Virus record (IMG/VR): IMGVR_UViG_3300028840_002358
Location: 1 to 54,657 of that record
DNA: 54,657 bases
Direction: 5' to 3' (one strand)
DNA from: a virus
This document shows, piece by piece, positions 1 through 54,657 of this stretch (the first letter of the stretch is position 1; each line of letters opens with the position of its first letter). Made by a program: the position numbers and the translations under genes. The notes below the pieces were generated by a model that saw nothing but the letters and a program-made list of their open reading frames with translations, was not told where the DNA came from and made no database searches.

Positions 1-144
1 GTCAGAAAGCGGCTTGTCGCTGGACAGCACACCCGGCAGCATCACACCGTGGTCAAAGAACAGCTTGAGAAAGTGCGTGATCGAGTTGTCCACGTCGGCG
101 GATCGAGCCATCGGGCTGATGGGCGAGAGCCCATAGCCCATCCC
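1..144. repeat. Terminal direct repeat, left copy
   Basis: The first 144 bases are identical to bases 54514-54657. The portal reading frame passes through the repeat and continues at 54513. This is what a circular or circularly permuted phage genome gives when an assembler leaves an overlap. A true short terminal repeat cannot be excluded, but its position inside the portal gene argues against a physical genome end here. Confidence 0.97.
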
Positions 145-789
145 CTCCAAGGGATCGAGGGGATTCGGTAGTTTCGTGTGCATCAGATCAGGCGGGGCGA
201 TCATCGTCGCCCGCCCGTTGTCTACCATCTCGGCGCGTGTTGCACCATTGGCCCGGCTGAACGCGGATCGGCCCTCTGGCACGTAGACGAAACCCAAGAT
301 CGTCGATATACCGTTCTTCTTACCCGGTATGATCAGCACGCGGTCCGGGCGGAGATTGTAGAGCGCTTCCGGCGGTGCGCTTGGACGCGGGCGGTCGAGC
401 AGGGTATAGTTGTTGCCGCTGATATTCAGATAGGTGATCGCCTGCTGCCGCATCTCGATCATTGACTGGTGCGGGTTGGGGCGGTCCACCAGCCGAGAGA
501 GCGGATCGTCAGGGGGCAACAGTTCCGGATCCTGCACGTCGCCGGTGTAGGCGCGCAGGGGGGCAGAGACCAACGCACGGCACTTGTACATGATGGCGCT
601 GTAGATCAGCGTATTGAGGTTAAAGCCCTCGTTGACGTATGCGGCAAAGTCCACGAGTTGCCACTGCGGCTGTTCGTCTACGTAAGACGGCCAGAGAAAC
701 GGGGCAACTTTGCGCGCACGAGGGGCAGGGGCAGGCGCCGACGTTTCCCCCGTGAATGCGTATTTTACTCTCTGCCAGAATGTTGTCAT
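1..789 (-). CDS. Portal protein, N-terminal part (continues at 54513)
   Basis: HK97/lambda-type portal protein that forms the dodecameric ring through which DNA enters and leaves the capsid. I read it from the ATG at 789 (protein starts MTTFWQRVKYAF) with GAGGGAC as ribosome-binding site. The frame is open through base 1 and, after removing the 144-bp repeat, continues at 54513 to the stop at 53866, for 478 aa in all. The N-terminal part shows the family pattern of an early 'VNEGFNLNTLIYSAI' helix followed by 'DRPNPHQSMIEMR' and 'NISGNNYTLLDR'. It lies after the terminase genes and just before the MuF head gene, the usual packaging order. A terminator-like hairpin sits just upstream (803-831). 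Confidence 0.93.
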   Translation of the reverse strand, partial: MTTFWQRVKYAFTGETSAPAPAPRARKVAPFLWPSYVDEQPQWQLVDFAAYVNEGFNLNTLIYSAIMYKCRALVSAPLRAYTGDVQDPELLPPDDPLSRLVDRPNPHQSMIEMRQQAITYLNISGNNYTLLDRPRPSAPPEALYNLRPDRVLIIPGKKNGISTILGFVYVPEGRSAFSRANGATRAEMVDNGRATMIAPPDLMHTKLPNPLDPLEGMGYGLSPISPMARSADVDNSITHFLKLFFDHGVMLPGVLSSDKPLSD

Positions 790-802
790 CCGTCCCTCAA
801 AG

Positions 803-831
803 AAAAAAGCCACACCCTCAGAGTGTGGCTT
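803..831 (-). terminator. Terminator-like hairpin just upstream of portal
   Basis: On the minus strand a perfect 9-bp stem (AAGCCACAC with GTGTGGCTT, arms 807-815 and 823-831, 7-nt loop) is followed by TTTTTTC, the form of an intrinsic terminator. It lies between the Tat-signal gene and the portal start, only 14 nt before the ATG. It would thus limit read-through into the structural genes, or act as an attenuator or processing site rather than a full stop. Confidence 0.7.
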
Positions 832-2351: not shown

Positions 2352-3623
2352 TTACCTGAGCACCCACCCGCCGCCCTGACCGATGGCCGCATAGCGCAGC
2401 GCGTCCAGACGGTGAAACTCTCGCTTATTGTCGATCTTGTCTGTCGGTTCGCCCATACTATCCAGCTTGCGCCGGTAGGTGCCGAACTCGTCAATGAGGC
2501 CAGAACACGAACGGAACACAGCCAGCGAACCGTCTTTGAGCCACTCGATCACCTTGTCGATCCCGCTCTCTACCTCGGTGATCCTCGGTTCGCCCAGCAC
2601 CAGCCCTCCATCTGCCCAATCTCGGCGGTATTGCCCCTCCGACTTGCTGCCCCCGTAAGCGGTGAAAAAGCAGCCGTCGGGCAAGTTGGCCCGCACGCTC
2701 TGCGCATATTCCTTGCTCGTCTTATCCCCGGTCATCTGTTCGTCGTAGACGATCCACTGCTGTGTGTCCGGGTTCTGCGCCAGGTAGACGACGGCGGTAT
2801 TGGCCCCGCCAAAGTCCACACCGATCAACCGCTCCCACTCGTTGGGAATTGCAAAGGGCTCCACGATCATCGACGGTTCAAACGCCGAATAGATCAGCCC
2901 TGCCGGCTTGGTGAACTGGCCCAGGTAGCGCATTCGATAGCGCCAGTCCTGCATCGTCTTGCGCCTGCGTTCCTGCTCCCGATCAGGGAAAGCCGGGTTG
3001 AGCGCGCTTGAGAAATTGACCACCTCAACGTCAGATGCGCCGCGCTGCCATCGGTCGTAGATCTCCGACTTGAGCCACCCCAGGTTGTAGGGCGTCGTAG
3101 TCCCTAAGCATCGGCCCTCGTGCAGGGAGAGCCGCGCCTGTACTGCGTTCCAGTCCTCAAGCGTGAAAGCATCTTGGCCGCATTCGTCGAGCCACGCAGC
3201 TTTTGCCGTGGCGCTCTCCAGGCCCCCGCCTGTACTGGCAGACCTTAGAATGATACGTCCCCACATCGGATCATCGCTGCGCTTGGCGAGAAATCCGCGC
3301 TTTGGATCGCGCAGCTCGATCACCTTGTCGCCTGCCCACCAGCGCCCGATGTGGAGAACGCTCTCAAATACAATGCGCATCTCGGGCAACATTTTCAATT
3401 TGAAAAGGTCATAGCTTGCCGTGACTGCTAGATAGTCCCCTGCGCCGTTGCGCTGGATTTCCCGGTAGAGCCACCAGGGACCATAAGCCGTCTTGCCGCT
3501 TTGCGTCCCAGCAATGATAAACACGAACCGCTTGCCAGACCGCCACGCTCGCGCCTGTCCGGGGTGGGGCGAGAGGATCGCTTGGCCCTTATCATTCGTC
3601 GTCCACAGCGTCGTCTGCGCCAT
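2352..3623 (-). CDS. terL: Terminase large subunit
   Basis: ATP-driven DNA packaging motor and headful/cos nuclease, 423 aa. The N-terminal ATPase has Walker A GTQSGKT (residues 39-45), Walker B 'AAWLDE' (about 142-147) and a coupling motif 'LGTTTPYN' near 173. The C-terminal RNase-H-like nuclease shows 'LIGVDFGG' near 265 and 'HRLDALRYA' near the end, the usual catalytic Asp positions. It overlaps the small subunit gene by 32 nt. Terminase-portal order is standard, although four small genes lie between TerL and portal here. Confidence 0.95.
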   Translation of the reverse strand: MAQTTLWTTNDKGQAILSPHPGQARAWRSGKRFVFIIAGTQSGKTAYGPWWLYREIQRNGAGDYLAVTASYDLFKLKMLPEMRIVFESVLHIGRWWAGDKVIELRDPKRGFLAKRSDDPMWGRIILRSASTGGGLESATAKAAWLDECGQDAFTLEDWNAVQARLSLHEGRCLGTTTPYNLGWLKSEIYDRWQRGASDVEVVNFSSALNPAFPDREQERRRKTMQDWRYRMRYLGQFTKPAGLIYSAFEPSMIVEPFAIPNEWERLIGVDFGGANTAVVYLAQNPDTQQWIVYDEQMTGDKTSKEYAQSVRANLPDGCFFTAYGGSKSEGQYRRDWADGGLVLGEPRITEVESGIDKVIEWLKDGSLAVFRSCSGLIDEFGTYRRKLDSMGEPTDKIDNKREFHRLDALRYAAIGQGGGWVLR

Positions 3624-4164
3624 CGTCCCCCGGCATTCTTACCACGACCTCTGTAATGATCGGGATCGCGCCGCCTTCGCCTGTGCCACTATGCTCAATC
3701 TTGGATGCCGCATAAACACCGAAAATCTTGCATCGCATCTCGATGCACCACTGGACGCCGCGCAGAAAAGACGGATCGCCCGCTTGACCCTTGGTCGTTC
3801 TCTCGATCTGCTCTGTATGCACGCGCCCCGGCACATCTGACGGCTGCCCTTTCTGCTTGACCGTCTCAGCGTCTTTGCAACTTTCAAGCCACGCCCGCCA
3901 ATAGGTGCGCTCCAGTTCATTGATCCGGGCAAGCTCTTGCGCCTTGGTCTCGTCAAGATCGATCAGCGCCGATTCTCGCCATTGCTTGATCAATTGCTGA
4001 ATATCATAGCTGACCATCTGCTGAGAGAGCGCATAACCTCGCCCTGTCTCTGGTTGGCTCAATTTCTCGGCAATCTCGGCCTGCTGCCAACCCTGCAAGT
4101 ACAGAGAAGCAATCTCTCGGCGGTCGCGTTCTATTTGCAGCGCGTTCCGAATGTTAGCCGCCAT
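3592..4164 (-). CDS. terS: Terminase small subunit
   Basis: 190 aa, directly upstream of and overlapping terL. The N-terminal region 'REIASLYLQGWQQAEIAEKL' followed by 'LSQQMVSYDIQQL' reads as a helix-turn-helix, as expected for the DNA-recognition domain of TerS. A central helical region follows and the C-terminus is acidic (DDGADDAVDDE). The function is inferred from HTH plus position. Confidence 0.82.
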   Translation of the reverse strand: MAANIRNALQIERDRREIASLYLQGWQQAEIAEKLSQPETGRGYALSQQMVSYDIQQLIKQWRESALIDLDETKAQELARINELERTYWRAWLESCKDAETVKQKGQPSDVPGRVHTEQIERTTKGQAGDPSFLRGVQWCIEMRCKIFGVYAASKIEHSGTGEGGAIPIITEVVVRMPGDDGADDAVDDE

Positions 4165-4200
4165 ACAAACCCCAGCACAAAGCGCCGCCCCCGCCCTCGC

Positions 4201-5448
4201 TCATTGCGTCACCCGTCGCGGCGAGAGGCCCATACCGGCAAGGCGTTCGAGGGTGACAGAGACATATTTCGGTTCGATGTCACAAGCTCGTCCAATGCGC
4301 TGCATCTGCTCACAGGCAGCTAGCGTGCTACCCGACCCAACAAATCCATCGAATACTACATCGCCTGGGCAACTGCTATATTCCATTGCCCGCCTCGGCA
4401 ATTCTATCGGCTTCTGTGTCGGATGCTTGTAATCAGATGCGGCATCGCGCCCTATCTGCCACAAGGTCGTAAGACTTCTGTCTCCGCAAAAGTAATGTTC
4501 GCCATGTTTCCAGCCATACAACAGCGGTTCATGCTGCGCACGATAGTCTTGCCACCCCATCGACGCGGCTGGTTTGGCCCAAATAATTGTACAACTGAAT
4601 TTCCAGCCAGCGTCACCAAAAGCCAATTCAAACGCCGGACGTGTGCCACGCGGACGGTCCGCGTGGCACACGTAAACCACGCAACCATCCGCCATCGCTT
4701 TATCCCAAGCCTTAAACGCGCAAGCCAGGAATGCCCGCAGCTCAACAGGATCAAGATCGTCGTTTTCGATGACTTGATGTGTCGTACTCTGGCCTCGGCC
4801 AGAGTACGACACGCCATAAGGCGGGTCAGTCCATACCAGCCCCGCCCTCTCCCCACCCATCAACCGCCCCACATCCGCCTCACTTGTCGAATCCCCGCAC
4901 ATCACCCGATGCGACTTGCCCGGTACACTGGCGCTTGGTATCTCCCACACATCGCCCCTGACAACGCCCCACTTCTCTTGCAACTCTTGCGCCTTGTCCA
5001 CCTGCCCGCCGGGATCCTCTGCCGGTTCGTCCTCCCCCCAATCAAGCTGTAACTCGCCCTCGTCAAAACCCCAATCGAGCAGGTCGCCTACCTCAAACGA
5101 GTTTGCCAGTTCCTCCCAGTCCCATTGGCCCATCGTGCCCCGGTGCAGGAACACGACCAGCTTTTGCCGTTCCTTCTCGGTCAGCGGGCGGGACGCCACA
5201 CGGACGTCCACCTCGTAATCCGGGCCATACCGCGCCGACGCTGCCCACACATAGCGGCGCTGATGGCCGTCGTATATCTCGTTATCCGGTCCAATCGCGA
5301 TGGTCTGAATCTGCCCGAACGTGTCGAGCGATTCAATCAGCCGCGCACCCTCACGCTCGTGAATCTCACGCGGGTTATGGTCCCACGGTACAAGGTCCGA
5401 GAGTTTGCGCCGCTCATTTGTCCAAGCGATCGCGCCGTTCTCACTCAC
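4201..5448 (-). CDS. ParB-domain / DNA methyltransferase fusion
   Basis: 415 aa. Residues 1-110 form a ParB/Srx-like domain ('LVPWDHNPREIHER', 'IYDGHQRRYVW'). The rest is a beta-class N6-adenine/N4-cytosine methyltransferase with 'VWTDPPYG' (motif IV, catalytic DPPY) followed near the C-terminus by 'FDGFVGSGSTL' (motif I, SAM binding). Such fusions are common next to phage terminases and probably modify phage DNA before packaging. The GTG start overlaps the previous stop (GTGA). The gene contains two long perfect inverted repeats (4639-4673 and 4779-4812). Confidence 0.93.
   Translation of the reverse strand: MSENGAIAWTNERRKLSDLVPWDHNPREIHEREGARLIESLDTFGQIQTIAIGPDNEIYDGHQRRYVWAASARYGPDYEVDVRVASRPLTEKERQKLVVFLHRGTMGQWDWEELANSFEVGDLLDWGFDEGELQLDWGEDEPAEDPGGQVDKAQELQEKWGVVRGDVWEIPSASVPGKSHRVMCGDSTSEADVGRLMGGERAGLVWTDPPYGVSYSGRGQSTTHQVIENDDLDPVELRAFLACAFKAWDKAMADGCVVYVCHADRPRGTRPAFELAFGDAGWKFSCTIIWAKPAASMGWQDYRAQHEPLLYGWKHGEHYFCGDRSLTTLWQIGRDAASDYKHPTQKPIELPRRAMEYSSCPGDVVFDGFVGSGSTLAACEQMQRIGRACDIEPKYVSVTLERLAGMGLSPRRVTQ
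4639..4673. repeat. Perfect 17-bp inverted repeat inside the methyltransferase gene
   Basis: Arms 4639-4655 and 4657-4673 are exact reverse complements around a single base (arm ACGTGTGCCACGCGGAC). It lies fully within codons of the methyltransferase domain, about 105 bp from a second such palindrome. Confidence 0.95.
4779..4812. repeat. Perfect 15-bp inverted repeat inside the methyltransferase gene
   Basis: Arms 4779-4793 and 4798-4812 are exact reverse complements (arm GTGTCGTACTCTGGC) with a 4-nt loop. It codes for the segment just after the DPPY motif. Confidence 0.95.
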
Positions 5449-5867
5449 ATCCCGCCCCCTGGATTGCCCCCGACCGCTTGGGGGGGAGAGCGATCAGGAG
5501 CATTCCGAGAAGCGCGATGTGCTGCGCTAATGTTGTACATCTCGACAAACGCGCTCAAGTCCTCCACCGGCCACAGATGCTCAGGCACATCCAAGCCGAT
5601 AGATGGACACGAACCGTCCGCTTGCCTCACACAGTAGGACGCAAAAGGCCCGGCGTCATAGGCGCGGGCCATCAGGGTAGAGCCATCGGGAAAGCGAAGA
5701 TAGAGCAAATCGCCACATTGCACCCGACCATCTTGGTAGTGCTCGATAGGTAGGGCGAGCCAGGGGGAATAGGCAGTGTCGTAGTAGCGGGGAGCATCAG
5801 GGGTAGAGCAATACAGCGGTTGCCCAATGCGACCTGCGTAGACTGTGGCGAGAACCAAAGAGAGCAT
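5445..5867 (-). CDS. Double-psi beta-barrel (RlpA/3D-like) protein
   Basis: 140 aa, first gene of the leftward arm. 'CGDLLYLRFPDGSTLMARAY' runs into 'DAGPF', and 'IGLDVPEHLWP' comes later. This matches RlpA-like barrels, which have a G-[TD]-x-L segment, a strand, D-x-GP and a following L/D-rich turn. Such domains are found in lytic transglycosylases and other cell-wall enzymes. The N-terminus MLSLVLATVYAG is hydrophobic but short, so secretion is uncertain. No canonical endolysin is visible elsewhere, so this is a candidate cell-wall-active protein. It overlaps the ParB-methyltransferase start. Confidence 0.7.
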   Translation of the reverse strand: MLSLVLATVYAGRIGQPLYCSTPDAPRYYDTAYSPWLALPIEHYQDGRVQCGDLLYLRFPDGSTLMARAYDAGPFASYCVRQADGSCPSIGLDVPEHLWPVEDLSAFVEMYNISAAHRASRNAPDRSPPQAVGGNPGGGM

Positions 5868-5879
5868 TCAAATTCCCAC

Positions 5880-5904
5880 GGGGGCGAGGCCCACCCTCGC
5901 CCCC
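5880..5904. promoter_or_regulatory. 10-bp hairpin in the leftward leader
   Basis: GGGGGCGAGG (5880-5889) and CCTCGCCCCC (5895-5904) form a perfect stem with a 5-nt loop. It lies 12 nt upstream of the first leftward start codon, in the transcript of the promoter at 5947-5975, so it probably affects translation or mRNA stability. Confidence 0.7.
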
Positions 5905-5920
5905 TCGACAAGGAGAACAT

Positions 5921-5940
5921 ACGGGGCGACACAACCCCGT
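5921..5940. promoter_or_regulatory. Hairpin at the predicted 5' end of the leftward transcript
   Basis: ACGGGG (5921-5926) pairs with CCCCGT (5935-5940) across an 8-nt loop. The predicted leftward transcript starts near 5940, so this would be a 5'-terminal hairpin of the kind that protects mRNA. Confidence 0.55.
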
Positions 5941-5946
5941 GTCCCC

Positions 5947-5975
5947 ATTATAACCGATGGTACACCAGTTGTCAA
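5947..5975 (-). promoter_or_regulatory. Leftward sigma70-type promoter
   Basis: On the minus strand TTGACA (5975-5970), a 17-bp spacer and TATAAT (5952-5947): a full consensus match. It reads toward the double-psi barrel, methyltransferase and terminase genes. No other leftward promoter this good was found by eye. Confidence 0.8.
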
Positions 5976-6028
5976 TAGCCCCGCGTTATGTCTAGGTATA
6001 CGGATGGTAACAAAAGGGCTAGAAATAC

Positions 6029-6058
6029 TTGACAGGCCCGCTCGATTTGTGGTATACT
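6029..6058 (+). promoter_or_regulatory. Rightward early promoter P1
   Basis: TTGACA (6029-6034), 18-bp spacer ending in TTTGTGG, and TATACT (6053-6058). It is divergent from the leftward promoter, with 53 bp between the two -35 boxes. It drives the first early genes from 6106. The region between the two promoters has no gene. Confidence 0.8.
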
Positions 6059-6105
6059 GTATCCAGATTGGACATGGACGCAGGGGGTGGCAAGGAGATA
6101 GGCGA

Positions 6106-6336
6106 ATGGACATCAGGACAAAGAGAATCCGAGACGCACAACCAGGCGAGATCGTAGCAGTTCCACTTGGCGGCATCAAGCCTACCGCAATCAAGATCGA
6201 ATCGCTTTTCTGCGTCATCGACCCCCCGCAACGATGCGCACAAGGTGAAGTCGTCGTGGCATTGGGCTATAGTACGTGCTCGGGTGTATCATTTGAGGCT
6301 GGCCGAATCGTCAGCGTCAACCTTGGTGCTCCATAA
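6106..6336 (+). CDS. Hypothetical early protein, 76 aa
   Basis: First gene of the early arm. Starts at ATG 6106 after CAAGGAGATAGGCGA; longer upstream starts would run through the promoter. Sequence MDIRTKRIRDAQPGEIVAVP, then a beta-rich body ending VNLGAP. No family recognised. Confidence 0.75.
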   Translation: MDIRTKRIRDAQPGEIVAVPLGGIKPTAIKIESLFCVIDPPQRCAQGEVVVALGYSTCSGVSFEAGRIVSVNLGAP

Positions 6337-6378
6337 GCCCCGCCGGGCGGGGCAAGGCCCGGCACAAGGAGGCACGCA

Positions 6379-6522
6379 ATGCTAGGCAGTCTCGTAATGG
6401 AGACGCCGGACACCGTAACCGGCAACACCGGGCGCTGCCACACGGCGGCATTGGATGATAGCCCAAGGGTTCGATCCCCAAGCGCCCGCATCAACGGGGG
6501 TAACTGGCTGCGCTGTTCGTGA
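6379..6522 (+). CDS. Hypothetical small protein, 47 aa
   Basis: ATG at 6379 with a strong ACAAGGAGG site 7 nt upstream. The protein begins MLGSLVMETPDTVTGNTG and has low complexity of fold. The segment 6429-6488 inside it can also fold as a tRNA-like RNA, so whether protein or RNA is the functional product is open. Confidence 0.5.
   Translation: MLGSLVMETPDTVTGNTGRCHTAALDDSPRVRSPSARINGGNWLRCS
6429..6488 (+). other. tRNA-like structured segment (not a full tRNA)
   Basis: CGGGCGC (6429-6435) pairs perfectly with GCGCCCG (6482-6488) like a 7-bp acceptor stem. Inside are a small TGCC/GGCA stem with a 7-nt loop and the T-loop-like string GGGTTCGATCCCC. The span of about 60 nt is too short for a cloverleaf and the T-stem does not pair fully. 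It overlaps a 47-codon ORF. Confidence 0.35.
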
Positions 6523-6587
6523 CACCCGACAAGCGCGATCCGCACGGCAGCGCGGCCTCATTTGACCGACAAGGAGAACAGACGACG

Positions 6588-6878
6588 ATGAACGCACAAG
6601 AGGCACTCGCCCAAATGGGCATCACCCAGGCGCGTACACCAGCGCCCGCCTTCCCCTATGCCGCGTATGATCTAGCATCTCGGACACAGGTCATCGCCAC
6701 AGCGCACGAAGATGCGCTGTGGGCGCGATTGGCCGACGGCACGCGGGCGCTGATCGCAGACCTGACCACCCTGCCCGAGTTGGCAATCCCCGACTGGATG
6801 CGCAAGGCGTTGCGACAGGCCGCCGATCTGCGCGACCTGCACGAGACGCAAGCGGATGCGGTTGGGGGGGCGCTGTGA
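6588..6878 (+). CDS. Hypothetical early protein, 96 aa
   Basis: Starts MNAQEALAQMGI at ATG 6588, after GACAAGGAGAACAGACGACG; a longer in-frame ORF begins upstream but the ribosome site fixes this start. Mostly helical, with no motif I recognise. The stop overlaps the next GTG start. Confidence 0.75.
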   Translation: MNAQEALAQMGITQARTPAPAFPYAAYDLASRTQVIATAHEDALWARLADGTRALIADLTTLPELAIPDWMRKALRQAADLRDLHETQADAVGGAL

Positions 6879-7042
6879 ACGAGGCGATCTACTGCGAGTT
6901 GTGCGGCCACGAGATCAAGGGCGACGACTATCGCGTCGTCGAGATTGACGGGCGCTTGACCACCATCTGCGGCGACTGCTACGCCGAGCCGCTCGAACCG
7001 CCTGAGTGGGCGCATACGCCAAGGAGCGCGAGCTATGCCTAA
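6875..7042 (+). CDS. Small zinc-ribbon protein, 55 aa
   Basis: GTG start overlaps the previous stop (GTGA). Two CxxC knuckles, 'YCELCGHEI' and 'TICGDCYAE', about 25 residues apart, indicate a one-zinc ribbon. Possibly nucleic-acid or protein binding. Overlaps the next gene by 8 nt. Confidence 0.75.
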   Translation: MNEAIYCELCGHEIKGDDYRVVEIDGRLTTICGDCYAEPLEPPEWAHTPRSASYA

Positions 7043-21689: not shown

Positions 21690-22893
21690 ACGGATGCTCG
21701 GAGTCAACGTCTTAGAGGCGGCGCGCCAGCGCGTTGCCTGGACGTTTGACACCTTTCCCCACGTGTATGTCTCGTGCTCGTGGGGAAAGGACAGCACGGT
21801 GATGTTGCACCTGGTGATGGATGAAGCGATCCGGCGCGGTCGTCGGGTCGGCGTACTGTTCCTTGACCTGGAGGGACAATACAAGCTGACCATTGACCAC
21901 GGGCTGAAATTGATCGAAATGTACAAAGAGCACATCGAGCCGTATTGGGTGGCCCTCCCGATCCACTTGCGTAATGCCGTGTCCCAATACGAGCATCACT
22001 GGATTGCCTGGGAGCCGGGACGGGAGAATGATTGGATACGGCAGCCGCCCAAGTGCGCGATTACCGATCAGGGATATTTTCCGTTCTACCAGTATGCCTG
22101 CGAGTTTGAGGACTTTGTGCCAGAGTTCGGCCATTGGTACGCGCAAGGCAAGCTATGCGCCTGCTTTGTGGGCATCCGCACGGCAGAGAGCCTGAACCGC
22201 TGGCGGACGATCGCTGGGCACGGGACAAAGTTCGAGGGCCGAAACTGGTGCCAGTACGTCGGACAGACGACGTGGAACGTGTACCCGATTTACGACTGGC
22301 GCGCCCAGGATATCTGGACGTATCACGGGCATTACCCCGACCGGCCCTACAACCGGCTGTACGATCTGATGCACCGTGCCGGGTTGTCGATCCACCAGGC
22401 GCGGATTTGCCAGCCCTACGGGGATGACCAGCGCAAGGGCCTATGGCTCTTTCACCTGATCGAGCCGGACACCTGGGCGCGGGTGGTAGCGAGGGTGAAC
22501 GGCGCGAACCAGGGCGCGCTGTACGCCAACGAGACAGGCAACATCCTGGGTCGCATCAAGATCGACAAGCCGGAGGGCCATACCTGGGAATCATTTGCAA
22601 TGCTGCTGTTGGGCAGTATGCCGCCCAAGACGGCAGAACATTTCAAGAACAAAATCGCGGTTTTTTTGCACTGGTGGCAAGAAAAGGGATACAACACAAT
22701 TCCTGATGAGGCGGATCACAAGCTGGAGGCCAAGAAACAGGTACCCTCCTGGCGTCGGATCTGCAAGGCCCTTCTGCGCAATGATTACTGGTGCAAGGGG
22801 CTGTCCTTCTCGATGCACAAGTCTGGCGCATACAAGCGATACCAGAAGATTATGACGAAACGGAGGAACCAATGGGGCATCTTTCCCTCATAG
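21679..22893 (+). CDS. PAPS-reductase-like PP-loop protein (DUF3440, IbrA-like)
   Basis: 404 aa. The PP-loop 'SCSWGKDSTVML' (residues 32-43) binds and adenylates substrates in the ATP pyrophosphatase/PAPS-reductase fold. Downstream, 'WRTIAGHGTKFEGRNWCQY', 'VYPIYDWRAQDIWTY' and 'HQARICQPYGDDQRKGLW' fit the DUF3440/IbrA group. IbrA proteins occur with an adjacent ParB-like IbrB, as here, and act in gene regulation or nucleic-acid modification by an unresolved mechanism. Overlaps the next gene by 22 nt. Confidence 0.85.
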   Translation: MDHKRMLGVNVLEAARQRVAWTFDTFPHVYVSCSWGKDSTVMLHLVMDEAIRRGRRVGVLFLDLEGQYKLTIDHGLKLIEMYKEHIEPYWVALPIHLRNAVSQYEHHWIAWEPGRENDWIRQPPKCAITDQGYFPFYQYACEFEDFVPEFGHWYAQGKLCACFVGIRTAESLNRWRTIAGHGTKFEGRNWCQYVGQTTWNVYPIYDWRAQDIWTYHGHYPDRPYNRLYDLMHRAGLSIHQARICQPYGDDQRKGLWLFHLIEPDTWARVVARVNGANQGALYANETGNILGRIKIDKPEGHTWESFAMLLLGSMPPKTAEHFKNKIAVFLHWWQEKGYNTIPDEADHKLEAKKQVPSWRRICKALLRNDYWCKGLSFSMHKSGAYKRYQKIMTKRRNQWGIFPS

Positions 22894-49585: not shown

Positions 49586-50929
49586 TTAGCTCGCCACGTC
49601 GCCCAGGATCACGAACGGGCTGATCTGGAACGTCCCGTCGGCCAGCGTCAGGGGGGCGCTCAACCACGGCTGCCCGTCCACACGATGCACCGCGCGCCAG
49701 GCGGTAATATCGTATTGGAACCGATAATGCATCGAGCTGTCGATGGTCGTCGCCTGGCGGTCGCCCACCAGGTAATAGTTCCAGTCGGCCAGCAGGATGT
49801 CCCCGCTCGTGCCCAGCGTCGGGAGCTTTTCGGTGTAGTAGATCGGGAACCCGAACAGCGTCCCCGGCGCGCCCTCGCGCGCATTCGGGATAAAGATGTA
49901 GGACGGGTTAGCCGCAGGCCCGTTGAGCGCCAGAAGCTGCGGCATCGCTGCACGCGTGATATGCCAGCAGGGGGCGTCCCCGTGATGCTGCGAGAGCATA
50001 TTGAAAATATCGGCTACGCCGATAGCACCCGCAACGGCCCGGTTGACAGTGATCGTCGCTGCGGCATTCAGAACGCCCAGCGGTTGGCCCGCGCCCGTGC
50101 CCTGCAAGAAAGTGTATTCCTCTTCCCAGCGAATGGCCCCGGCGAAGCCCATTGGCGACTGCAAAAAGGCCATCAGCCCGACCGCCTCGTCTGCAAGCAA
50201 TTCGTCCGACGCCTCAGTGTAGCATACGAGCTTGTGCGCCACGAGGTTGATCTGGCGAAAGGCGGGTTGCGTCTCGTCTTTTTGCGTTGCCTCTTCGGTC
50301 CACGAGGCAACGATCCCGCCGTGCTGGCGCGTCTGGCCTGCCGTGGTGCCCGTCTGATCCAGTGTCGGCATTTGAATTTGCCGGCGCGACATCGGGATCA
50401 CGGTCGCTCGCGCGCGGATCGGGTTGTCCTCGTAGACGACGCCCAAAAGTTCGGGGCGATATTCCACAGGGACCAGGAACCCGCCGCTTGCGCCCACCGA
50501 TTCAAGCAGGTCTTTCGTCTGCGCGCCGTTCTTGAGCGTCTGCGCGCTTTTCTTGGCCAGCCAGTTGTCGCCGTCGTCGTCATCCTCGTCCTTGTACTCG
50601 CCACATCCCAGCACCTCACGCGGATCAATCGGCCCGCGATATTTTGGATCGTAGTAGCGATGCGTCCACTGTAGCCACTGCCCAGCGTTTTTGATCTGGT
50701 AGCCGGGCTGCGCGCCCTTCTTGTTCGGCTCCTCCTGGAACGCCTTGTATTCGATAGCCGCCTCTTCGATGTCTTTCAGTTCGGCGGCGCGGGCGTGCCA
50801 GTCCTTGCCCTCCAGGATCAGTTTGTCGCGACGTTCCGCGTCCTCTGCGCTGATCTCGTCCAGCTCGAGCAGACCCTTCGCCTCGGTAAAAAGGCGATTG
50901 GCCTTCTCAAGCATCTGTTTTCTGTTCAC
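49586..50929 (-). CDS. Major capsid protein (HK97 fold)
   Basis: 447 aa. The N-terminal 110 residues are a charged coiled coil ('KGLLELDEISAEDAERRDKL') that serves as the internal scaffold (delta domain). The shell part begins near 'GASGGFLVPVEYRPELLGVV', the typical mature N-terminus, with 'IRWEEEYTFLQGTGAGQPLG' and 'DWNYYLVGDRQATTIDSS' further on, both HK97 landmarks. GTG start with GGAGGTTGAAAC and a GTGA overlap to the protease gene. Confidence 0.95.
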   Translation of the reverse strand: MNRKQMLEKANRLFTEAKGLLELDEISAEDAERRDKLILEGKDWHARAAELKDIEEAAIEYKAFQEEPNKKGAQPGYQIKNAGQWLQWTHRYYDPKYRGPIDPREVLGCGEYKDEDDDDGDNWLAKKSAQTLKNGAQTKDLLESVGASGGFLVPVEYRPELLGVVYEDNPIRARATVIPMSRRQIQMPTLDQTGTTAGQTRQHGGIVASWTEEATQKDETQPAFRQINLVAHKLVCYTEASDELLADEAVGLMAFLQSPMGFAGAIRWEEEYTFLQGTGAGQPLGVLNAAATITVNRAVAGAIGVADIFNMLSQHHGDAPCWHITRAAMPQLLALNGPAANPSYIFIPNAREGAPGTLFGFPIYYTEKLPTLGTSGDILLADWNYYLVGDRQATTIDSSMHYRFQYDITAWRAVHRVDGQPWLSAPLTLADGTFQISPFVILGDVAS

Positions 50930-52425
50930 GTTTCAACCTCCGATAGTTCTCGTTCAATGACCCCCATCAGTTCGTTTATGTCGGCCATCAGTTCCTCGGA
51001 GGTGGGTGCTGTCTGCGGCCCGGCCTCGGTCTCTTGGCCCGTCGCGGCCTCTGTACGAGGTGCGTCTTTCGCTTGTTCGTCCTGTTCTGGTTCGTCCTCT
51101 GTCGGCATCGTATCGCTCAAAAGCGCCTCTAGGTCGGCAAGCGCCGATTGTGCGGCGTCAATGGCCCCCTGGATGCGCCTGGCGTTGGCGGCGCTGATTG
51201 CGCGCCCGATCTTGGTCGCTATTTTGGGAGAAAACGCCATAAAGAACGCAGGGAACCCACCACCTCCACTCAGATTAATATCCATAATATCATCAGGGAT
51301 AGTGCTATTCAATTCATCCAGCGCAAGCCCTATCGCGTGCGACATTAATCGCCGCTGATCCTGATCTAAATAACCCTGCACGATCAAATCATCAGCAATA
51401 ACGGTGAAAATCCTATGGATGGAACCGGTCAAGAAGTCGCCCAATCGTTGTATCGGCCTTCCATCTGGCCCAAGCTCCTTGCTATCAACTATGCCGTCGT
51501 CAATGCCGCCCCCGCCGCCCCCATTCGGCTCATCTTTCCCCACATACCGGGGCGGATCGTCTGTCTCAGGATCAAGCGCCTGCTTTGCCGTGCGTTCGAT
51601 CCACGCCTTCCACAGCTCGGCGCGCTGGTCGAGCGTCGCATCGGCCAAGAATGCCGTCAGGTTGTCAATCGCCGTTTGCTTGTCGGTCTCTGGATCGGCT
51701 TCTTTTGTCCCTGTCGTAACGGTTGCCGGGTTGGCTCCCCAGATCACGTTGCTGTATTCCCAAAGTCTGATCTCTTTGAGCAGCCGAGTCGTGACCTTCT
51801 GACCATCGATCTCCTCCTCGACATATTCAGCCGTGATCGGATCATAACCGATAGACGTTTCTGGCAGAAAACCGCCGTCAACGAGATGAAACATATTGCG
51901 CCCGTTATCGGTTTTCATTGCATATTGGGTAACGGCCAGCAGACCCCCAGTCGCTTCTGGATATTCCTCAAGCACTTTTTGGGGCAGCTCATTGCGCCCG
52001 ATTTCTCGCATAGCACGCGGTTTGCCCACTACGCGCAAGGCGCTATCGGCCATGTGCTGATCAAGTGTACGAATCTTGCCGAATCGCTCGGCAATGGTTT
52101 TTGTATATGCGCCGGGCATCACCCGATCCCCCTGCATATCCCGAATGCCGAATACACTGACCACGTGCTCAACGATGCCCTCTTTTTCATCTACTGCCTT
52201 GATAAACGTCGGGATCGTCTTGCGTTCAAAGTTGGGCAAGTCTCTGTAATCGCTTGCGTTCTTGCTCATTGGTTCCTCCGCCCCCTGTTCGTCGCGGTTT
52301 TCCCACATCGAATAGCACACGGCGGTCGCCTGCTCGCTGTCCTCTGCCGTGCTGTCCTCAAGAACGATAGGGATGCAGCGCGCTATGAACTCGTCTTGTG
52401 TCTCGTCTGCTCTAGGTGTTGGCAT
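50926..52425 (-). CDS. Prohead maturation protease with C-terminal extension
   Basis: 499 aa. Residues about 65-245 match the caudovirus prohead serine protease (herpesvirus-type fold): 'GAYTKTI', catalytic His in 'LDQHMAD' (H124), 'LLAVTQYAMKTDNGRNM', and the nucleophile in 'LPETSIGYD' (S191). The N-terminal 'DETQDEFIARCIP' segment is a common leader. After residue 250 there is a 250-aa Glu/Asp-rich helical extension that could work as scaffold. Cuts the delta domain off the capsid. Confidence 0.92.
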   Translation of the reverse strand: MPTPRADETQDEFIARCIPIVLEDSTAEDSEQATAVCYSMWENRDEQGAEEPMSKNASDYRDLPNFERKTIPTFIKAVDEKEGIVEHVVSVFGIRDMQGDRVMPGAYTKTIAERFGKIRTLDQHMADSALRVVGKPRAMREIGRNELPQKVLEEYPEATGGLLAVTQYAMKTDNGRNMFHLVDGGFLPETSIGYDPITAEYVEEEIDGQKVTTRLLKEIRLWEYSNVIWGANPATVTTGTKEADPETDKQTAIDNLTAFLADATLDQRAELWKAWIERTAKQALDPETDDPPRYVGKDEPNGGGGGGIDDGIVDSKELGPDGRPIQRLGDFLTGSIHRIFTVIADDLIVQGYLDQDQRRLMSHAIGLALDELNSTIPDDIMDINLSGGGGFPAFFMAFSPKIATKIGRAISAANARRIQGAIDAAQSALADLEALLSDTMPTEDEPEQDEQAKDAPRTEAATGQETEAGPQTAPTSEELMADINELMGVIERELSEVET

Positions 52426-52691: not shown

Positions 52692-53027
52692 TCAGTCGTA
52701 CCTCATCCAATCTGCCACTCGATTCTCTTGCGCCCCTGTCAAAGCGGGCACCTTATACTCTGTCGGCCCCACCTTGGCGTGCTGCTGCCGCCTGTCTGCA
52801 CAGCGCAGGCACAGGATCGAACCGGTGCCCTCTTCGATCCAACTCTGGTCGCCTGCTTCCAACGTCTCTCCGCAAACGACACAGTGCACGGTCAGGCCGA
52901 ACGGAACAATGTAGGTCTCTCCCTTTCCCATCGCCCCCTCCTTGATCTGTCTAATTCGAGCGCGAATCTCTGCCGTCGTGATCTGTGGGAATGCCGGTTT
53001 CAGCAGAGCACGGATAAAGCGGTTCAT
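52692..53027 (-). CDS. Zinc-binding protein, 111 aa
   Basis: 'VHCVVCGETLEAGDQSWIEE' and 'ILCLRCADRRQQHAKVGP' give two CxxC pairs, a treble-clef or ribbon zinc site, between a helical N-terminus and a short tail. ATG overlaps the MuF stop (ATGA). Could be a small head-associated or regulatory protein. Confidence 0.72.
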   Translation of the reverse strand: MNRFIRALLKPAFPQITTAEIRARIRQIKEGAMGKGETYIVPFGLTVHCVVCGETLEAGDQSWIEEGTGSILCLRCADRRQQHAKVGPTEYKVPALTGAQENRVADWMRYD

Positions 53028-53872
53028 TCAATGTCCTCAATCACAGGTGCCGTTACACAACGACACGAAACTATTTCCGACGCCGGTGCCCCCAGGCTCC
53101 CATCAAGCGGATGGAGCATCGGATAGCCGCCGACCTCGAACGGCTGGCCGATCACCCGTACTTGTCCATCAGCCGCCGCGTGTGTGGGCCTCGTGCGCGC
53201 ATCGTTCGTTGCAACCCACTCGTGCCGGTCTGCCCCATAGGCGCGGAACAGGAGCGGGCTCGCAAAGGAACTCGAATGCATGCTTTCCGTTCTCGATATC
53301 ATCTCTACTCGATACCTCGGACTTCGATTGACGAACCATTGCCGCTCGTCATCGGTCAGCGTCTCGTCTCGTAGGTAGACATCCCACAGACGATCAATGC
53401 CGTTATTCAGGCGCTCGATGGTCCAGCCCTCCTCGCGTGCCGTCTTGAGGAGGGCGAATAGATCGCTCTCTGTCGTCTCAAGGATCGGCTCGCTGAAAGT
53501 CATCTCGTAAGCCTGAAACTCGAGCGCCGCATTTTCTAGCCAGTTTTGGACGTTGAACTGTATGCCTAGTTCAGTAGTCCAGACGTCGTTCACGTCCCTG
53601 GCCGTGCCGATGATCAGCGGGTGGAACAGCTCGCGCCAATTGGCGGGCGCTTCGTTGGCAAAGTAGTCGGCCCAGTCGCGCTCGATCAACTCCCAGTCTA
53701 CCGACTGCTTACGCTGTAGAAAGAGAGCCTTGGCCGCGTTGACCCTGGCCCGGATAGCCCGGTGATCGCGCTCTAGTGCATCCTCGCTGGCATTGGCATA
53801 GTCGCCTTCGGTCGCCTCGGCTGCTTTGTCGAGGATGCGCGCGACCCTCTCTTTTTGTTCAGTTGTTAAGGC
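53024..53872 (-). CDS. MuF-like head morphogenesis protein, probably made by -1 frameshift from portal
   Basis: Minor head protein of the Mu gpF/SPP1 gp7 family, a few copies of which are carried in the capsid with the portal. The C-terminal 110 residues show the family pattern: 'RVEMISRTESMHS', then 'HEWVATNDARTRPTHAAADG', 'MLHPLDG' and a terminal 'EIVSCRCVTAP'. The open frame begins right after the A9 tract at 53873-53881 with ALTTEQKERV, and I find no ATG or GTG before the MuF domain. The first start-like codon, a TTG at 53689, has SD-like GGGAG directly abutting it with no spacer and would cut off about 60 helical residues. I therefore infer synthesis as a 759-aa portal-MuF fusion (477 + 282 aa). 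The following gene overlaps its stop (ATGA). Confidence 0.85.
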   Translation of the reverse strand, partial: ALTTEQKERVARILDKAAEATEGDYANASEDALERDHRAIRARVNAAKALFLQRKQSVDWELIERDWADYFANEAPANWRELFHPLIIGTARDVNDVWTTELGIQFNVQNWLENAALEFQAYEMTFSEPILETTESDLFALLKTAREEGWTIERLNNGIDRLWDVYLRDETLTDDERQWFVNRSPRYRVEMISRTESMHSSSFASPLLFRAYGADRHEWVATNDARTRPTHAAADGQVRVIGQPFEVGGYPMLHPLDGSLGAPASEIVSCRCVTAPVIEDIE

Positions 53873-54657
53873 TTTTTTTTTACAGTCACGGACGGTAACA
53901 GTTTGCGACCCTCGTCTGTCGCCTGGGCACCGCCGTCCTCAGTCTGCTCAATCACGCGCCCCTGACCCAGGGCGGCGACGGCCGGAACCTCGATCATCAT
54001 AGGGGAGAGGACGAATACGTCATCCTCCCCAGGCCCCAGGGCAGGCAAGCCCATCGTGCGCCTGTACTCACCCCTGGTCACACCGCCCGATTTGAATCCC
54101 TCAAGCATCCGGTCTTGTTCCGCCTGGCGCTGTGCCTGGAAAGCAGGAACCTCGGCATAGTCGAACGCGACGAACTTATCGCCGTCGTTGAGGTAGTATT
54201 GATAGTCCACCTCGAACAGGGCGTTTTCGGGGACCATCGTATCTTCCCAAAACGCCTGTCGCGCCTCCCGATAGTTGGCATAGGTCGCTCGGTCCAGCCC
54301 GACGCGGGCGCCGACCAAGATCGGAGGGACGCCGAACGGCCCCAAGATGCGCGTCTCGTTGCGTGCGTCCTGCTGCTGAAAGCCCATCTCATCGAATGTG
54401 AGCCCGATGCGCTGATAGGTCGTGCCCTGTTCGAGCACGCCGATCTCTTCGCTCCATCGGTAGTACCCGCCGTACATCTCTTTCCAATTCTCTTTGACGC
54501 GGGCAATCGTATCGTCAGAAAGCGGCTTGTCGCTGGACAGCACACCCGGCAGCATCACACCGTGGTCAAAGAACAGCTTGAGAAAGTGCGTGATCGAGTT
54601 GTCCACGTCGGCGGATCGAGCCATCGGGCTGATGGGCGAGAGCCCATAGCCCATCCC
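53866..54657 (-). CDS. Portal protein, C-terminal part (continues at base 1)
   Basis: C-terminal part of the 478-aa portal protein; bases 54514-54657 duplicate 1-144. The segment has the conserved portal core 'LGPFGVPPILVG' and 'ANYREARQAFWEDTMVP', and a clip/wing region ending 'GVTRGEYRRTMGLPALGPGEDD', all typical of the Phage_portal family. The gene ends in GTA AAA AAA AAG CCT TAA. The A9 run (53873-53881) contains A AAA AAG in the reading frame, a classic -1 slippery heptamer. Slipping by -1 moves ribosomes into the MuF frame, which has no good start of its own. The normal product is portal; a minor product is probably portal-MuF. Confidence 0.93.
   Translation of the reverse strand, partial: GMGYGLSPISPMARSADVDNSITHFLKLFFDHGVMLPGVLSSDKPLSDDTIARVKENWKEMYGGYYRWSEEIGVLEQGTTYQRIGLTFDEMGFQQQDARNETRILGPFGVPPILVGARVGLDRATYANYREARQAFWEDTMVPENALFEVDYQYYLNDGDKFVAFDYAEVPAFQAQRQAEQDRMLEGFKSGGVTRGEYRRTMGLPALGPGEDDVFVLSPMMIEVPAVAALGQGRVIEQTEDGGAQATDEGRKLLPSVTVKKKP
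53873..53881 (-). other. A9 slippery tract, candidate -1 frameshift site (portal to MuF)
   Basis: On the minus strand the portal codons read GTA AAA AAA AAG CCT TAA. The last seven A/G bases form A AAA AAG in the correct phase for tandem -1 slippage, as in E. coli dnaX. The -1 frame is open for 282 codons and encodes MuF. A stem-loop can form about 25 nt downstream (GGTCG/CGACC enclosing CCTCG/CGAGG), further away than usual stimulators. Transcript slippage adding one A would give the same product. A missed A in the assembly (A10) is the alternative. Confidence 0.75.
54514..54657. repeat. Terminal direct repeat, right copy
   Basis: Exact copy of bases 1-144. Merging the two copies gives a 54513-bp circle in which the portal gene is intact. 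Confidence 0.97.

Follow-up and report, generated by a model that had tools for sequence, protein, structure and literature searches.

The portal and MuF genes in the window

The window, that is, the whole stretch of 54,657 nucleotides analysed here, is an IMG/VR virus contig (IMGVR_UViG_3300028840_002358) with identical ends of 144 bases, positions 54514–54657 being a repeat of 1–144. Genes therefore run on across the contig ends. Once the 144-bp ends are joined, a minus-strand ORF of 486 codons becomes whole and encodes a portal protein (Table 1), both halves of which match PF04860 above its gathering score (104 and 71 bits, cutoff 39). Just past the portal lies a MuF head protein in the -1 frame (PF04233, 34.8 bits, cutoff 29.6). 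An initial annotation had placed both genes within 53024–54513; this holds for MuF, whereas the portal is not wholly inside that span, starting as it does at 813 and crossing the contig ends. A small Cys-rich protein with two CxxC pairs is encoded at 52692–53027 (minus strand), directly 3' of MuF and overlapping the MuF stop. No tRNAs were found in the window.

Table 1. Features of the portal–MuF locus, in window coordinates
Feature	Position	Strand	Basis or remark
Portal gene, 5' part	1..813	-	GTG at 813, or ATG 8 codons in; PF04860, E 1e-19
Portal gene, 3' part	53866..54513	-	PF04860, E 9e-30; gene continues across the contig ends
Portal (frame 0) stop TAA	53866..53868	-	One codon past the candidate slip site
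A9 tract (putative slippage site)	53873..53881	-	In-phase A_AAA_AAA (53881–53875) and A_AAA_AAG (53878–53872); A9 kept in relatives 68–78% identical (DNA)
MuF head protein, -1 frame	53024..53872 (stop included)	-	PF04233, E 3e-8; phrog_2468, E 7e-30; codon-position test; predicted structure
First TTG in MuF frame (rejected start)	53687..53689	-	Would delete the first long helix
Prohead protease S78 (context, downstream)	50926..52425	-	PF04586
Major capsid protein (context)	49586..50929	-	PF05065, E 1e-44

On the minus strand the portal gene ends GTA AAA AAA AAG CCT TAA, the plus strand reading T9, and this run is the sole homopolymer of 8 or more nucleotides in the window. The open stretch of the -1 frame begins at 53938, ahead of the tract, and continues as far as the stop at 53024. 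The overlap of the two frames contains in-phase heptamers of the X_XXY_YYZ form: A_AAA_AAG, to which the initial annotation had drawn attention, and also A_AAA_AAA. A_AAA_AAG is among the best slippery heptamers for the ribosome. The predicted -1 product is 767 aa long when counted from the GTG and 759 aa, the length that had been proposed, when the joined ORF is counted from the ATG. Elsewhere in the window, the in-phase heptamers GGGAAAG and GGGTTTC occur within -1 ORF overlaps at 22887 and 14459 (minus strand), probably by chance.

Downstream of the tract, the first ATG, GTG or TTG in the MuF frame is the TTG at 53689, 61 codons on, in line with the earlier remark that MuF lacks a usable start for its first 60 or so residues. 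Conservation of the MuF-frame protein (TTEQK...) and third-position bias set in immediately past the tract. Across the 60 codons ahead of any usable start, third positions vary about 2–3 times as often as first and second positions, and amino-acid identity is 0.55–0.78 in the MuF frame compared to 0.22–0.52 in the other frames. In an AlphaFold2 model of MuF (mean pLDDT 89), the first helix spans residues 7–57, directly following the three lysines that the tract encodes; comparison of the model with PDB structures gave no match. TTG 53689 was rejected as a start because it would remove this predicted helix together with conserved residues. Protein-level conservation of the downstream frame reaches back to the slip site, and this frame has no start of its own.

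Conservation of the A-tract in close relatives

The same A9 is found in a phage from another sample that is 99.98% identical (L002/L038). The A9 and the -1 offset are common to three lineages and seven assemblies: that of the window and two that are ~77% (L003/L004/L005) and ~68% (L006/L007) identical to it in DNA. Conservation of the tract, which had been named as a check, thus extends to lineages 68–78% identical. In the three lineages the tract reads GTA AAA AAA AAG CCT, CTA AAA AAA AAG GCG and ATT AAA AAA AAA GCA. Small length changes lie beside it and its phase differs from one lineage to another, whereas the nine A's and the net -1 offset are kept in all three. In L006/L007 (L041), the tract is immediately preceded by a TAA in the MuF frame, so that any frame switch must fall within the tract or the short overlap that follows, and not further upstream. 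A true A10 run had been named as the observation that would speak against a frameshift. We rejected it, since the near-identical phage of the second sample and relatives in five other assemblies read exactly A9, which with the window makes seven assemblies of the three lineages.

One contig of the ~77% lineage (L003/L037) carries an extra C ~70 nt upstream of the tract (GAGCCCAGAGC) that puts portal and MuF in one frame and is lacking from the near-identical L004/L040 and L005/L042; it is either an assembly error or a natural in-frame variant. In MuF of this sister lineage (L040, 1662–2237), the C-terminus is extended by a segment that contains an HTHP motif, looks JAB-like by eye, has no Pfam match and is lacking from MuF of the window.

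Portal–MuF junctions among wider relatives

Two IMG/VR scans with portal motifs, together with profile searches, yielded 51 non-redundant loci with a readable portal–MuF junction. They belong to a broad set of phages, most of them uncultured. Thirteen distinct sequences, from about 10 lineages, are in the -1 state; all of these relatives are metagenome contigs and are known here from their sequence. Their sites are A9 (the three of the window clade, L052, L061, L064, L072, L092 and L117), A7 in slippery phase (L059, L070 and L124) or, once, C_CCT_TTT (L058). In 9 of the 13 (six lineages) the MuF frame lacks any start codon over 20 codons or more, and a possible GTG or TTG start lies within ~12 codons in four (L052, L058, L061 and L117), with a TTG overlapping the portal stop in L061 and L117. 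Long A/T runs are concentrated at this junction: 13 of the 14 sense-strand runs of 9 or more in the 384 kb of the 51 related loci sit there, 12 of them within a strict 70-bp window (P ~4e-23) and the thirteenth just outside it, at a locus whose HMM start is truncated.

About 25 relatives in the portal tree have an in-frame portal–MuF fusion without a slip site. In-frame fusions with a slip site at the junction are seen in L077/L031 (A9), L071 (A10), L141 (A7) and the cultured phages Geobacillus GBK2 and Bacillus Silence (T9), in which the -1 frame stops two codons on; GBK2 and Silence are 58.6% identical over the fusion. L071, an in-frame fusion with A10, is 98.4% identical overall to L092, which has A9 and is in the -1 state. 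In a few relatives (L132, L137 and L080) MuF has its own ATG. The frameshift state is scattered among fusions, with 7 changes on the MuF tree and 10 on the portal tree; the deep nodes are weak, and well-supported nodes force at least 5 and at least 3 changes, respectively.

Other arrangements were seen in the same searches. In L119 (1840–2112), MuF is +1 relative to the portal near CCC TTT CGG, where a UUU to UUC shift is possible, and has no good start; this single contig holds either a +1 site or an error. The L031 portal ORF (IMGVR_UViG_3300009529_000049, 2911–7038) contains an apparent intein (after ...LATASY, beginning CLPKTANIS... and ending ...VVHN), past which it continues in frame into MuF. 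A related portal clade (L045, L066, L069, L073, L076, L086 and L159) has a short Cys-rich, zinc-ribbon-like C-terminal tail, and no MuF was detected in this clade. In L032/L035/L088 the portal has a long Pro/Ala-rich, helical C-terminal extension and a MuF gene lies ~3 kb further downstream.

When viral sequences were scanned more deeply with MuF alignments, the same six contigs came back along with one distant one, whereas portal motifs did find relatives. Scans of genome contigs gave no relative readable as portal, most matches being chance pattern matches. One distant in-frame fusion was found in Chloroflexota genomes and four distant portal–MuF-like ORFs in Bacillota genomes, in each case without a slip site at the junction.

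Proposed frame change and alternative explanations

We consider it very probable (about 0.8), from the sequence features described above, that the A-tract is a functional slippage site, with most of the product being portal alone and a minority portal–MuF. Most expression would be read in frame 0 and would stop one codon past the tract, giving the portal alone. In a minority of cases the frame would shift on the A-tract into MuF, giving a single polypeptide with MuF at the C-terminus of the portal. Portal rings would then be mixed and would hold a few covalently attached MuF domains, presumably inside the head by analogy with SPP1 gp7. The programmed frame change and minor portal–MuF product put forward in the initial annotation are supported by the frame relation, the slippery site, the missing start and the conservation, which can be read directly from the DNA; the ratio of the two products, the location of the fusion and its benefit are what we infer.

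The likeliest step would be tandem -1 ribosomal slippage on A_AAA_AAG or A_AAA_AAA. Addition of an A by RNA polymerase (A9 to A10), or the two machines acting together, would be nearly as likely on the tract of the window. We lean slightly towards a part for ribosomal slippage in the window, be it alone or with the polymerase. The A9 tract suits both the ribosome and the polymerase, while A7 and C_CCT_TTT speak for the ribosome. No shared Shine-Dalgarno-like element or downstream RNA structure was found (fold z-scores -1.8 to +1.3). Such stimulatory elements are frequent in -1 frameshifting and not strictly required.

Transcriptional slippage alone, a rival on mechanism only, has in our judgement somewhat less than an even chance. 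RNA polymerase would add or drop A's on the A9 run, and the ribosome would read normally a fraction of A10 mRNA that encodes the fusion. The run in the window has the length, about 9 or more, at which homopolymers are taken to slip in transcription, and exactly 9 A or T is the classic threshold for efficient slippage, used for instance by Thermus dnaX (PMC5009743; PMC1088944). The lack of translational stimulators is in keeping with such slippage, as is the finding that almost every long run is exactly 9 nucleotides in length but varies in phase. A dnaX-like layout is found in L077/L031 (A9, in frame) and in GBK2 and Silence (T9, the -1 frame stopping two codons on), and both layouts are known to arise through transcriptional slippage in Citrobacter tssM1 and Yersinia tssM3 (PMC4256274). 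However, the long run is absent from L059, L070 and L124, which have A7 in the ribosomal phase, from L058 (C_CCT_TTT) and from phage Emery (T6A), and A_AAA_AAG in the window is also a top ribosomal heptamer.

We regard it as improbable that MuF is a separate protein, initiated internally or at a poor start codon (TTG 53689 or a non-canonical one) and coupled to portal termination, with an idle A-tract; the fusion-junction peptide VTVKKKALTTEQK would then not be expected. Some relatives do start MuF separately, from an ATG of its own (L132, L137 and L080) or potentially from the TTG that overlaps the portal stop (L061 and L117). Initiation at TTG 53689, however, would remove the predicted helix 7–57 and conserved residues, no start is common to the window, L040 and L041, and the conservation of A9 would be left unexplained. 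Ordinary translational coupling was rejected.

Still less weight is given to a contingency locus, at which the tract would flip between A9 and A10 in the DNA, making individual phages either portal-only or all-fusion. The L071/L092 pair (A10 and A9 at 98.4% identity) and the interchange of frameshift and fusion states on the trees would fit such a locus. Against it, every sample of the lineages of the window, L040 and L041 has A9, and A7 and C_CCT_TTT are not hypermutable repeats.

Least probable of all is an assembly or sequencing error that hides a true A10 and thus a plain in-frame fusion: in-frame fusions are common in relatives, L071 has A10 where its near-twin L092 has A9 and the extra C of L003/L037 restores a single frame, but seven assemblies from three lineages agree on A9, every one of the 13 offsets is -1 where errors would fall both ways, the A7 and C_CCT_TTT cases have no long homopolymer, and the phase of the tract varies between lineages while the net offset is kept.

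Returning to slippage on the A-tract, the in-frame fusions of both domains in relatives and isolates indicate that a portal–MuF fusion is structurally workable. The ~25 in-frame fusions without a slip site further suggest that 12 copies of MuF may be tolerated and that the group as a whole does not depend on a set ratio. A low number of MuF domains may not be essential, or the in-frame fusions may be processed in some other way. The initial annotation had suggested a few MuF-tailed subunits in each dodecamer; a minor fusion product fits this part, whereas the need for a precise ratio is not established, given the in-frame relatives without a slip site. We also put forward, as a speculation that we think possible but doubtful, that a recurrent slippage element sets the number of MuF domains per portal ring in unrelated portal families (HK97-type, and T4-type in Emery) and in both default orientations (portal-only by default with a slipped fusion, or fusion by default with a slipped truncation at A9/T9), in A9/T9 phages mainly through RNA polymerase.

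Relation to known systems

Frameshifting in the tail assembly chaperone genes of dsDNA phages (lambda G/GT) was reportedly described by Xu, Hendrix and Duda in 2004. As in lambda, where the ratio is fixed, the slip site at the portal–MuF junction ends a structural gene and would yield a minor, C-terminally extended product. In contrast to lambda, the genes are head genes, portal and MuF, and not a tail chaperone pair before a tape measure gene, the sites are mostly A9 or A7, and the frameshift state is interchangeable with an in-frame fusion in relatives. Minor C-terminally extended virion proteins also arise from -1 frameshifting in the major head protein gene of phage A2 (PMC5009743) and from +1 frameshifting in SPP1 gp17.1/gp17.1* (PMC6316719), although these are a major capsid and a tail tube protein, respectively, rather than a 12-mer portal. 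Thermus dnaX (A9), Citrobacter tssM1 (an A-run of 11) and Yersinia tssM3 produce long and short forms, the long one being either the default or the slipped product. These are cellular genes for which the mechanism is proven, and the A7 relatives of the portal–MuF locus do not fit it.

The same two domains, in the same order and in one ORF, occur in PHROG 2662, which is an in-frame portal–MuF fusion, in Microbacterium phage clusters EA3/EA5/EA8/EB (PMC7302621) and in GBK2 and Silence. SPP1 gp7 is bound to the portal in 1–2 copies per capsid and is dispensable for assembly and needed for full infectivity (PMC6316719; PMC5576092).

The closest precedent is phage Emery (Brevibacillus, formerly P. 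larvae; KC595516), for which ribosomal slippage giving head morphogenesis products of 58.9 and 82.5 kDa was predicted in 2014 (PMC4168068). At this locus (L171, 3171–5350), gp4 ends CGT TTT TTA ATG CCG TAA, with U_UUU_UUA in phase, and gp5 is a -1 extension with a MuF domain. The frame-0 product is in the portal position, the gene after terminase, and gives a weak PF07230 match below the gathering score. From its sequence, gp4 is probably a T4 gp20-type portal and gp5 its -1 form with a MuF/SPP1-gp7-type C-terminus. Emery thus resembles the window in having a slippery heptamer at the gene end and a MuF-type C-terminus in the -1 frame. It differs in its portal, which is T4 gp20-like and not HK97-type (PF04860), and in being a single phage without comparative evidence. 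The authors of that study named no portal and called both products head morphogenesis proteins. Apart from this unrecognised prediction, we found no statement of a portal–MuF frameshift in the open-licence literature, and within that literature the remark that programmed frameshifting is not usual for portal–MuF is borne out.

The kind of event is therefore already known and one instance had been predicted, with its portal unrecognised; as far as we found, its broad conservation is new. Annotation pipelines that split portal and MuF would give MuF a wrong start. Cultured phages carry candidate sites, GBK2 and Silence T9 and Emery U_UUU_UUA, which makes the idea testable. If the A9/T9 phages mainly use slippage by RNA polymerase, head assembly in tailed phages would be an unusual place to find that mechanism at work. 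If our main reading is true, slippage would be a simple means to hold 1–2 copies of MuF per capsid, which SPP1 achieves non-covalently, and the portal, the most stoichiometrically constrained head protein, would be added to the phage proteins that owe their composition to slippage.
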